Shown one piece after another: positions 2,899-57,460 of a stretch of 64,000 nt of DNA. A model generated the notes under the pieces. It did no database searches. It saw only the letters and a program-made list of their open reading frames with translations, and was not told the origin of the DNA. The stretch is from Haloarchaeobius sp. HME9146 (GTDB lineage Archaea > Halobacteriota > Halobacteria > Halobacteriales > Natrialbaceae). How positions within the stretch are numbered: the stretch's first letter is position 1; every line of letters begins with the position of its first letter. The translations under genes and the position numbers were made by a program. The stretch lies in the NCBI RefSeq assembly GCF_025399835.1, contig NZ_JAODVR010000001.1, positions 2,790,001-2,854,000 on the forward strand, read 5' to 3'.

Positions 2899-5397
2899 AT
2901 GAGTTCAGAAGCCCCCGAATCCCCCGACGTTCCAGCAGACCGAATCGAACACGTCCGCATCGAGGACGAGATGGAGCAGAGCTACATCGACTACGCGATG
3001 TCCGTCATCGTCGGGCGTGCCCTGCCCGACGTTCGTGACGGCCTCAAGCCCGTCCACCGCCGCATCCTCTACGCGATGCACGACATGGGCGTCACGAGTC
3101 GGTCGAGCCACCGGAAGAGTTCGTCCATCGTCGGCGAGACGATGGGTGACTACCACCCCCACGGCGACCAGGCCATCTACGACACCCTCGTGGGCATGGC
3201 CCAGGACTTCTCCATGCGCTACCCGCTGGTCGACGGCCAGGGGAACTTCGGCAGCATGGACGGCGACCCGGCCGCAGCCATGCGGTACACGGAGGCCCGG
3301 ATGGCACCCATCGCCGAGACGCTCATGGAGGACATCGAGAAGGACACGGTCGACTTCTCCTCGAACTACGACGACCGCCTCGAGGAGCCCGACGTGCTCC
3401 CGGCGTCCTTCCCGAACCTCCTCGTCAACGGCAGCACGGGTATCGCGGTCGGGATGTCCACGAACATCCCGCCGCACAACCTCGGCGAGATCATCGACGC
3501 GACCATCGAGGTCATCGACAACCCCGGAGCCGACGTGAACGACCTGATGGAGCACGTCAAGGGCCCGGACTTCCCGACCGGCGCGAACATCGTCGGCCGC
3601 AACGCCGTCCGCAAGGCGTACGCGACCGGCCGCGGCCGCATCCGCATCCGCGCCGAGTTCGAGGTCGAGGACTGGAAGAAGGACCGGAAACGCATCGTCA
3701 TCACCGAACTGCCCTACCAGGAGAACAAGGCCCGCCTCGTCGAGCGCATCGCCGACAACGTCAACGAAGGCAAGATAGAGGGCATCTCGGACCTGCGCGA
3801 CGAGTCCGACCGTGACGGCGTCCGCGTCGCCATCGACCTCAAGCGCGGTGCGAACGTCGAGGTCGTCAAGAACCAGCTCATCGAGCACCACCTCGAGAAG
3901 ACGTTCGGTGTCATCAACCTCTCGCTGGTCGACGGCCAGCCGAAGGTGCTCTCGCTGAAGGAGACGCTCGAGCACTACATCGACCACCGCAAGGAGGTCG
4001 TCCGCCGGCGCTCGCAGTACGACCTCCAGCAGGCCGAGGACCGCGCACACATCCTCGAAGGCCGGCTGAAGGCGCTCGACCACATCGACGACGTGGTCGA
4101 ACTCATCCGGAACTCCGACGACCGCGACGCCGCGAAGACCGGGCTCGAGGAGACGTACGAGCTCTCCGAGGCGCAGTCAGAGCACATCGTCCGGATGCAA
4201 CTCGGCTCGCTCACCAGCATGGAGCGCGCCGAGATCGAGGACGAGTACGAACAGGTCCAGGAGACCATCGAGTACCTCGAATCCGTCCTCGCCAGCGAGG
4301 AGAAGCTCCTCGACGTCATCAAGACGGAGCTCCGGCAGGTCAAAGACCAGTACGACGACGACCGCCGCACCTCCTTCGTCGCGGACACCGGCGAGGTCAC
4401 GCACGAGGACCTCATCCCGGAGGAGGACGTGCTCGTCGTCTTCACCGAGGACGACTACGTCAAGCGCATGCCCGTCGACACGTTCGACGCCCAGCACCGC
4501 GGTGGGAAGGGCATCATCGGCGGCGACATCAAGGAGGGCGACCGGGTGTCGAAGGTGTTCCGCGCGAGCACCCACGACTACCTCCTCTGTTTCACCAACC
4601 ACGGGCAGGTGTACCAGCTCAAGGGCTACCAGATTCCCGAGATGTCCCGCACCGCCCGCGGGAAGTCGGCCGTGAACATCATCGACCTCGACGACGGTGA
4701 AGAGATAACCGCCGTCGTGAACACGGACGACTTCGAGGAAGACGAGGCCATCACGATGGCCACCCGGAACGGCTACGTCAAGCGGACGAAGACCGAGGAC
4801 TTCCAGAACATCCTCTCGACCGGTATCATCGCCGCCAAACTCGACGACGGCGACGAACTCGTCGACGTCGAGGTCACCGACGGCACGAAGGACCTGGTCA
4901 TCGGCACCGAGCAGGGGATGACCATCCGGTTCGACGAGGACGAGGTCCGGACGATGGGTCGCAACACCCGCGGCGTCCGCGGCATCAAGCTCGACGAGGA
5001 CGACCACATCGCCGGGCTCGTCGCCACCGACGAGGCCGACGAGCGCGCACTCCTGACCGTCACGAAGAACGGCTACGGGAAGCGCACGCTCCTGTCGAAC
5101 TACCGCCGCCAGTCCCGCTACGGGAAGGGTCTCATCGACATCAAGACGAACGAACGCAACGGGACCGTCACGTCGGTGAAGGCCGTCAGCGAGGACGACC
5201 ACGCGGTCGTTATGTCCGAACAGGGCCAGATCATGCGGACCCGCGTCTCGGACATCTCGCTCCAGGGCCGCAACACCATGGGCGTGACCGTGATGGACGT
5301 CGCTGCAGACGATGCGGTCGCGACCGTCGAGGTCGTCCCGACCGTCCCGGATGAACCGGACGAGGTCGACGAGGCCGAAGAGGCTGCCGCCGAGTAA
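2899..5397 (+). CDS. gyrA: DNA gyrase subunit A
   Basis: Breakage-reunion subunit of gyrase, 832 residues. The N-terminal core begins at [20 protein letters not shown]. The catalytic tyrosine is Tyr130 in [10 protein letters not shown]. The six-bladed C-terminal DNA-wrapping domain is present, with a GyrA-box variant QHRGGKG (about residue 535), which argues for gyrase rather than topoisomerase IV. The tail is acidic. The quinolone-pocket segment reads [11 protein letters not shown], so the position equivalent to E. coli Ser83 is Gln91, while the Asp87 equivalent (Asp95) is kept. It follows gyrB with zero spacing. No strong T-tract terminator was seen in the 100 bases after the stop. Confidence 0.98.
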
Positions 5398-32872: not shown

Positions 32873-33356
32873 AGCGACCGATTCTGTCACTGTTGGGCCG
32901 GTCGGATTCGCCTCTGGAGAGAATGTCGGGTAGTCGCCGTTCTCTCTCGCTGGTGGCAGGACCGCGACCGCCCCGCGCCGCAACCACACCCTCCCCAGCC
33001 GACTCCCTCCGTTCCACTCCGGTCGTCCCTCGCGCGACGCTGGTTCGCGGCCTCCGGCACGCTCACCAGCGCGCGCCAGGCGGTCTTTCAGCCCGTCATC
33101 TGTACTCGAACAATCGGTCTGGCGCGTGCAGGCGGGCGGTCTCGTCCGCCCGCCGAAGCGCGCGAGGGATGACTGGAACGGAGCGGAGCGTAGTGGAAGG
33201 AATCGGCTGGGGAGGCTGTGGTGTGGTCATAGCCACCAGCGCGAGTCATCACGCCGTTCTTACAGGCCACCTCGATACCAATATGGCCCGAGCAACCAAC
33301 CAAGACTGCCAGCCAGAACCAGACAATTAAACCCGACGCCCACCTCACCCCGAGTA
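32873..33356. other. Intergenic interval holding palindromic repeat copy 1 and the BolA-gene promoter
   Basis: No gene is supported. The centre is repeat copy 1 (about 32946-33245, see separate entry). The final 100 bases contain a TATA-like AATTAAA at 33325-33331, about 29 bases before the ATG of the BolA-like gene. Confidence 0.7.
32946..33245. repeat. Long imperfect palindrome, copy 1 of an intergenic repeat family
   Basis: About 300 bases. The left arm (32946 to about 33036) and the reverse complement of the right arm (about 33159 to 33245) align along most of their length. They share CGCTGGTGGC at the outer end, CCCCAGCCGA with its complement TCGGCTGGGG at 33203, and TCCCTCGCGCG at the inner end. 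The 18-mer CACACCCTCCCCAGCCGA at 32985-33002 is identical in two other places in the window. The centre contains a perfect 9-bp hairpin at 33131-33154 with loop TCTCGT. Open frames across it are not conserved between copies, so it is not protein-coding. It could be a MITE-like element or a structured RNA. Confidence 0.85.
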
Positions 33357-36619: not shown

Positions 36620-36908
36620 ACTTTGACCTCCACATCGTACGGACACAATTCTTTCTACTGAAGAGACTTATCAGAGGAAAACAATTCACCTGCCCTGATG
36701 AACCCATCCTCTGTATTCAGCACGACACATCTGACAGGATTGATTCAGAACACCGAGTGAAGCGACAGACCAATCCCTCTGACTCCGTCGGCTAGTTTCA
36801 CGTCCAGCAGAAGGAAGTCGGGACCCGATTCGGGTCCTCGATTCTCTCGCCCCATCCACAGCTGTCGGGGGTCGAAAACGCCGAAAAACGGAACCGCGAC
36901 GTGACGTC

Positions 36909-48502: not shown

Positions 48503-49105
48503 ACCCGGTGGTATCGGGTCTGTGGGTAAAAACGACGCGTCTTCGGGTGTCGCGATGTGGTACAGAGTTTTCCCGTGTTTCTTCGTACGATGCCATGGAT
48601 TCCGATAGCACGACGACTCGCGCCGATTGCGATGGAAACCGCAACCGCACCGCAGCCACACCCTCCCCAGCCGACTCCCTCCGCATTCGCTCCGGTCGTC
48701 CCTCGCGCGCTGCTGACTCCTGGCTTCGCGTTGCGAGGCGACTCGGTCGCCTCGCGCTCAGCACACTCGTCAGCGCGCGCCTCATCGCTGTTCTGCCGAG
48801 CATCTGTACCCAGCCAATCAGTCTGGCGCGTGCAGGCGGGCGATCTCGTTCGCCCGCCGAACCGCGCGAGGGACGAAGCGCGCAGTGTAGCAACGCGGAA
48901 CGAGCACTGGAGTCGGCTGGGGAGGCCGTGGTTGCGGTGTGGTGCGGAGGCGGTCATCGCCAACAGCGCGAGTGAACTGCTCGTAGTCACCACCAGCACT
49001 GGCCCCAATCACACCTCGAAACCCTCCGACAAGCGCTGACAGAACTCCCGGCAGGTCGAACGGGGAACAGGCCGTTTTTCACGATTCAGACCCCCAACCC
49101 AGGTA
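48503..49105. other. 603-base intergenic interval holding palindromic repeat copy 2
   Basis: No gene is supported. It contains repeat copy 2 (about 48614-48974), the probable promoter of the trmJ-partner operon near 48520-48540, and a T-rich GTTTTTC near 49074-49080 about 28 bases before the dihydropteroate synthase start. Confidence 0.7.
48614..48974. repeat. Long imperfect palindrome, copy 2 of an intergenic repeat family
   Basis: About 360 bases, organised as copy 1. Outer ends share ACTCGCGC with its complement GCGCGAGT. The 18-mer CACACCCTCCCCAGCCGA is at 48657-48674 and its partner TCGGCTGGGGAGG at 48913-48925. The inner ends are TCCCTCGCGCG and CGCGCGAGGGA. The central hairpin at 48835-48858 is GGCGGGCGA-TCTCGT-TCGCCCGCC. 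Compared with copy 1 the loop is identical and the closing pair changes from G-C to A-T. An extra 60 bases lie in the left inner region. Sequence between the arms (CATCTGTAC, GTCTGGCGCGTGCAGG) is also conserved. Confidence 0.85.
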
Positions 49106-57136: not shown

Positions 57137-57460
57137 GCATCGAGTGTCGGGTGGTGGTGACAAAACGATTCGCCTGCTGCGTGTCTCAGTCCGTGGAGCC
57201 AGGATCGGTTGTGTTTCCAGTTCGTCCGCGGCAATCTGGTAAGGCTAGCAGTTCACTCGCGCCGATGGTAATGGAAACCGCCCCGCACAGCACCGCATCC
57301 ACACCCTCCCCAGCCGATTCCGGTGCTCGTTCCGCTCCGCTCCACTGCACTCCTCATCCCTCACGCGCTTCTGTCACTGGCCCTCGCTATCGCTCGGGAC
57401 CGGCGACCGCGCGCGCCAGAATGAAAGAGAGAAGAATCGTCGCAGACTGCTGTGGCCGCT
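57137..57460. other. 324-base interval holding half-copy 3 of the palindromic repeat
   Basis: No gene is supported. The half copy is at 57251-57420. The first 100 bases hold the promoter of the ThDP gene (minus strand). No clear terminator for metY was seen. Confidence 0.65.
57251..57420. repeat. Half copy of the long palindromic repeat (left arm only)
   Basis: It begins TTCACTCGCGC like the reverse complement of the right arm of copy 2, includes the exact 18-mer CACACCCTCCCCAGCCGA at 57300-57317, and continues GTGCTCGTTCCGC and CATCCCTCACGCGC. It then ends at CGCGCGCCAGA near 57420, where the other copies carry on to the central hairpin. The second arm and the hairpin are missing, so this is a truncated copy. 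Confidence 0.75.

Follow-up and report, generated by a model that had tools for sequence, protein, structure and literature searches.

Several described families of repeated DNA are close to the elements reported here. In the modular bacterial repeats of the BOX type, variable middle modules lie between conserved blocks. The (TGGAA)n satellite DNA, which has a pentamer period, contains the GGA zipper motif, with tandem sheared G.A pairs around an intercalated base; the GNA/G.A-zipper fold has been studied mostly in synthetic DNA and in satellites. The REPINs of bacteria (PMC3116915) are tied to the RAYT transposases of the Y1 type. In haloarchaea, the PATEs of Haloquadratum walsbyi are intergenic, hairpin-bearing, transposase-free repeats that derive from IS605-type elements (PMC3119063). 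The repeats of Haloarchaeobius sp. HME9146 described below resemble the REP/REPIN/BIME group: they are dispersed and extragenic, would form hairpins on a single strand, occur in many copies as singlets and inverted doublets, and are partly vertical in their inheritance. As with REPs, these are short, hairpin-capable units (64 copies, none lying in a called gene among the 53 considered). REP hairpins, however, are short and conserved, whereas the haloarchaeal zippers vary from species to species and from almost every locus to the next.

The window, that is the whole stretch of 64,000 nucleotides analysed, belongs to the main chromosome contig, C1 (3.49 Mb). An earlier note had pointed out two long palindromes in it, at 32946-33245 and 48614-48974, with inverted arms and common blocks, and an exact 18-mer, CACACCCTCCCCAGCCGA (18 nt), present in both and at a third site near 57305. 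Arms, blocks and 18-mer were all found in these places, and GGCTGGGGAGG has 5 occurrences in the window, where 0.05 would be expected. The palindrome is nevertheless not the unit of the repeat. The structures of 300-360 bp exist as tail-to-tail pairs of asymmetric monomers (~130-190 nt each), inverted, whose 5' ends face each other, in both palindromes, across a 41-bp spacer. On its purine-rich strand, called R, a monomer is made of TGGCGCGCGC, a hairpin (H1), GCGCGAGGGAYGA, a second hairpin (H2), RTCGGCTGGGGAGG, GTGTGG, a variable GCGGT-rich stretch and GCCACCAGCGCGAG. An invariant block of 15 nt, apparently unpaired, lies 3' of H2. This modular organization, with a variable middle between conserved blocks, is like that of BOX repeats, the two being compared by description only.

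The left half of the first palindrome is monomer 1 (32946..33078, folded strand minus), whose 5' end, TGGCGCGCGC, is at 33078 and which was the seed of the covariance model R1. Its H1 hairpin (33031..33076, minus strand) has the foot stem CGCGCG/CGCGCG, its H2 zipper (33001..33027, minus strand) reads GAC-GA-CC-GGA-GT[GGA]AC-GGA-GG-GA-GTC, and its invariant core block, AGTCGGCTGGGGAGG, occupies 32990..33004 on the same strand. Beyond the spacer (33079..33119), monomer 2 (33120..33245, folded strand plus) carries the H2 zipper GAT-GA-CT-GGA-AC-GGA-GC[GGA]GC-GTA-GT-GGA-AG-GA-ATC (33168..33204, plus) and the core block AATCGGCTGGGGAGG (33201..33215, plus). In the second palindrome, monomer 3 (48611..48782, minus strand; core block at 48662..48676, minus, C1:2838662) and monomer 4 (48824..48984, plus strand; core block at 48911..48925, plus, C1:2838925) are separated by a spacer (48783..48823) partly similar to that at 33079-33119. 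The third site is a single copy, monomer 5 (57247..57418, minus strand), the H2 of which is a class B zipper. A single monomer is asymmetric: its two ends differ and do not form inverted termini. A classical MITE, judged from the monomer ends, is not supported. A CRISPR was rejected because there is no array, and an attC site because the copies are dispersed singles. The window also contains a separate repeat of ~80 bp at 36705-36790 (query 5306-5391 of window:31400-51300), with 83-91% identical copies on C3 and C4 of a congener and on C2 of this genome. The segment 37302-38028 has many copies, 66-78% identical, in this genome and in congeners, and is probably part of a paralogous gene family.

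In 20 copies, H2 reads as a zipper, a series of 2-bp steps with G-N-A triplets between them, for example GC(GAA)GT(GGA)GT[GAA]AC(GGA)AC(GGA)GC. All of the 80 mirrored steps of these copies are Watson-Crick (55 GC, 25 AT), with zero G.U and zero A.C, compared to 24 of 42 when the steps are paired one step out of register. The H2 of other genera is built of four-base units and G-A loops, and Watson-Crick pairs make up 237 of its 272 mirrored pairs but 69 of 172 shifted ones; the copies counted in these and the other pairing statistics are not independent. H2 falls into the length classes 23/33/43 and 29/39/49, and 21/29/37/45 in other genera, which differ symmetrically, by one unit per arm. Class B copies have extra five-base segments that are complementary except for a mismatch in the middle; GCACC/GGAGC and GTACC/GGAAC are examples. 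The pentamer period and the sheared G.A zipper of H2 liken it to the (TGGAA)n satellite; the latter is a eukaryotic tandem satellite, whereas H2 is a short hairpin of defined extent that belongs to a dispersed element.

The strand on which the structure is maintained can be read from the imperfect pairs. In the H1 foot stem, the three informative pairs of 208 aligned elements give, on R, 478 Watson-Crick, 131 G.U and 4 A.C combinations; read on the opposite strand, the 131 G.U would become 131 A.C. At the foot of H2, where the pattern used to pick the set of 227 elements allows only Y and R (it also fixes some letters of the H1 foot), the Y-R pair is CG in 71 cases, TA in 137, TG in 18 and CA in 1. 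The excess of G.U over A.C in H1 and of TG over CA in H2 therefore indicates that the structure is constrained on the R strand, and a mutational strand bias is no ready alternative because the copies take both orientations relative to genes. Folding of single copies by nearest-neighbour parameters is unremarkable (z from -2.5 to +2.0), so that the structure rests on the comparison between copies. In a free-fold count over the 227 elements, H2 could not be told from shuffles, and fixed-column and mirrored-step counts were used instead; RNAalifold, run on a plain MAFFT alignment of monomers, gave no usable fold, this method being blind to G.A zippers. On these comparative grounds it is well supported that the purine-rich strand is the folded, constrained one and carries both H1 and the G.A zipper H2.

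Quasi-palindrome template switching is able to perfect inverted repeats, and the paired arms might have arisen in this way, with no selection. It would, however, complement the GNA loops too, which stay G-N-A on both arms, and it would act equally on both strands, whereas in the H1 foot G.U outnumbers A.C on one; we hold this origin to be highly improbable. The strand-specific pairing and the compensatory changes in the hairpins would also be expected if the purine-rich strand were a structured non-coding RNA whose family has many copies in the genome. Against this speak the lack of G.U in the 80 zipper pairs and the apex of H1. This apex forms a GNNA tetraloop; in 33 of 41 cases its third base is a pyrimidine, which makes it GNYA, unlike the GNRA loops of RNA. 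GNNA loops are stable in DNA too. GNA triloops, present throughout H2, are described as extraordinarily stable DNA mini-hairpins (Yoshizawa 1997 and Hirao 1994, as cited in PMC6479982). We thus lean towards DNA rather than RNA as the folded strand, a choice suggested by the make-up of the loops and zippers, although the G.U-rich foot of H1 would fit RNA.

The repeat extends far beyond the window. The first element used as a blastn query gave 84 matches in the whole genome, and at least 64 monomer copies, the majority single, were found at 57 intergenic loci, all on C1, with none found on contigs C2 and C3; the core CCTCCCCAGCCGAYT has 59 exact matches genome-wide, every one on C1. Inverted doublets occur above chance: 7 neighbouring pairs, all inverted, are less than 400 bp apart, against 0.5 expected. 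The intergenic, non-coding location proposed earlier holds for the family at large, since gene calls by a home-made codon scorer place 0 of 53 own copies, and 1 of 111 copies elsewhere, inside genes. The copies face neighbouring genes in random orientation: of 52 own copies, 24 have strand R running in the same direction as the gene 5' of it, and the counts for the two co-directional contexts in other genera are 31 and 30. A UTR or terminator element was rejected on account of this randomness. Convergent spacers are over-represented among the copies of other genera, with 36 cases to 13 divergent ones; the background spacers that have no copy divide into 19 convergent and 61 divergent. A conserved upstream motif was sought at -70 to -6 in this genome and in Natrinema, and its information was near zero, not above background. 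Neither an own promoter nor consistent co-transcription was found, and a free RNA gene is disfavoured; with random orientation and no Rfam family to match, an RNA family looks unlikely. The 5' boundary of the monomer is sharp, and no conserved target oligonucleotide was seen there. Copy-free comparison sites were found, where the intergenic DNA is too diverged for readable junctions or target-site duplications.

A nested module (a GAGAGCTTGCTCTC hairpin with GTGGAC...GAGGTCC) was noticed inside two copies, at C1 899382 and 3324708 of this genome. It also lies beside copies in other genera (L095, L134, L146, L158), frequently together with TGGACTGAAAGGGCGAGG. The hairpin repeat seems to be mixed with another, second family of haloarchaeal repeats.

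Under uniform placement, the confinement of the 57 loci to C1 has a P of 3e-5, and the loci are clustered on this contig (mean position 0.40 Mb, Rayleigh p 7e-5). Genes of the orc1/cdc6 type are located at 463, 629, 2183 and 3133 kb; the cluster is near the first two, and the copies at C1:462909 and 627517 lie within ~1.1 kb of two orc1/cdc6 genes, a proximity noticed post hoc. These data, and the fact that congeners mostly keep the same sites, are what would be expected of a chromosome-maintenance or organising site, at which host proteins would bind extruded hairpins, for example at replication forks, while selection holds the copies in place. Such a site accords less well with the gain or loss of sites between congeners, with the few copies on large plasmids of other haloarchaea, and with the distribution described below, in which many genomes have no match and numbers are uneven within a family. 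We consider a chromosome-maintenance role rather improbable; it stays a serious rival because the distribution is chromosome-only and clustered.

By covariance-model search, with E-values that are rough, relatives of the repeat were found in 85 of the 145 Halobacteria genomes sampled and in 36 of their 59 genera, the other 60 genomes giving no match. Copy numbers are very unequal within a family; a count of 24 per genome, the highest that this survey could give, stands for at least 24. A scan of a prokaryote genome collection with the core pattern gave haloarchaeal sequences in every case among the matches listed. Seven plasmid records match, the best being a 987-kb Natrinema replicon, in six places, and zero matches were obtained in the viral contigs and phages searched. 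The Rfam covariance models gave zero matches to the repeat, and the family was not met in a limited search of the open-access literature. Judged from these searches, it is a family of dispersed extragenic repeats that extends over the haloarchaeal class. Since it is dispersed, structured, intergenic and conserved in relatives, a decayed local duplication, the case that the earlier note had set against its own proposals, is refuted. As to those proposals (a MITE-like element, a structured RNA or a chromosome-organising site), a structured family spread over the genome is what stands; the classical form of the first is not supported, the second is disfavoured and the third is retained as a rival.

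Comparison with congeners indicates that sites and hairpins do not have the same history. The region 418-741 kb is colinear with congener G003, in which 13 of the 17 loci are common in position and orientation; the copy at 493265 is absent there (67 bp instead of 329), and no recognisable copy was found for the loci 418430, 452704 and 585067. More shared sites were found with G003 beyond this first colinear comparison. In the 60 nt of 5' flank, the mean identity over 26 shared sites is 0.71, compared to 0.58 between unrelated sites, and the best match is the true partner in 18 of 26 cases; the 15-nt core has a mean identity of 0.95. In contrast, the identity of H2 is 0.60, against 0.59 for unrelated sites (true partner best in 1 of 26), and that of H1 is 0.58, against 0.56 (5 of 26). 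With values so near the unrelated level, the hairpins have thus been exchanged or replaced at standing sites. A replaced H1 or H2 is always another well-paired hairpin, and identical H2 sequences are found at different loci within the genome. In the inverted pair at C1 664457/664721 (C1 2268970/2269232 in G003), the inner H1-H2 segment is flipped while the outer tails are in place, and the sites 899382 and 740792 have a single copy in one species and an inverted pair in the other. Both window pairs are missing at the corresponding place in G003, and the first is also missing from a short spacer in G002; at one Natrinema site the element is present in five species and absent from two others. 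What looked like inverted pairs in the congener, at the sites 1347752 and 903474, was rejected as chance anchor matches. An 86-bp element with a MITE look and the ends CTATAGTAG/CTACTATAG was noticed beside a repeat in Natrinema mahii (L140:5737-5823); four relatives have the repeat but not this element at the L140 position, and an identical copy of the element exists at G129:C5:11707.

That hairpin content should be swapped while genomic places stay fixed is unusual. Independent reinsertion at hot spots could mimic the swapping; the identity of flanks, which reaches 0.95 at shared sites, argues against it. The simplest mechanism would be ectopic gene conversion, and intermolecular gene conversion is documented in a polyploid haloarchaeon, Haloferax volcanii (PMC8223754).

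The explanation that we prefer, and to which we give about an even chance, is that of a REP/REPIN-like extragenic family, the copies of which would be spread by a putative enzyme acting on folded single strands, while gene conversion would exchange the hairpins. The anatomy is well supported; the mechanism we infer. The substrate would be the folded single strand, more probably DNA that replication exposes than RNA; a putative trans-acting enzyme would recognise it and occasionally insert a new copy, such insertions being presumably rare. The invariant blocks that border the hairpins may supply the homology for ectopic gene conversion, taken to be efficient in polyploid haloarchaea, and the swapping of hairpins between loci through these blocks would be frequent. 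Against this explanation, the candidates for a mobilising enzyme are absent: a profile search of this genome found neither PF01797 (Y1_Tnp) nor PF07282 (TnpB), and Y1_Tnp is also lacking in at least 7 genomes with at least 24 matches. The family is not counted among the REPINs because the genome has no Y1/RAYT transposase; REP-like anatomy without Y1/RAYT and TnpB therefore led us to propose a REP-like element with a putative trans-acting enzyme.

The absence of PF01797 and PF07282 also led to the rejection of an IS200/RAYT or TnpB origin. The repeats are similar to the PATEs in being haloarchaeal, transposase-free, intergenic and hairpin-rich, and in occurring as singles that lack inverted termini, and could on this account be terminal remnants of IS200/IS605-type transposons or derivatives of them like the PATEs. 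They differ from them in the lack of TnpA and TnpB in the genome, the latter speaking against a PATE/IS605 origin, and in the lack of a conserved target oligonucleotide at the 5' boundary, which makes such a descent very doubtful. Beyond the REP/REPIN-like explanation, a more daring reading, unlikely in our estimation, would make these repeats self-diversifying chromosomal ssDNA structures: G.A-zipper hairpins would serve as cassettes, and a dedicated system of single-strand recombination or conversion, bordered by the invariant blocks, would exchange them among intergenic sites that stay fixed, perhaps giving each site a distinct structural identity for chromosome organisation.

The finding adds an archaeal repeat family that spans a class, has no Rfam model and did not turn up in the limited literature search. 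Its purine-rich strand offers clean comparative evidence, from a natural genome, for GNA/G.A-zipper hairpins. For archaea, the complete turnover of hairpins at fixed sites may serve as a natural assay of ectopic gene conversion or single-strand recombination; it would also be a lead to a putative enzyme or nucleoid factor.
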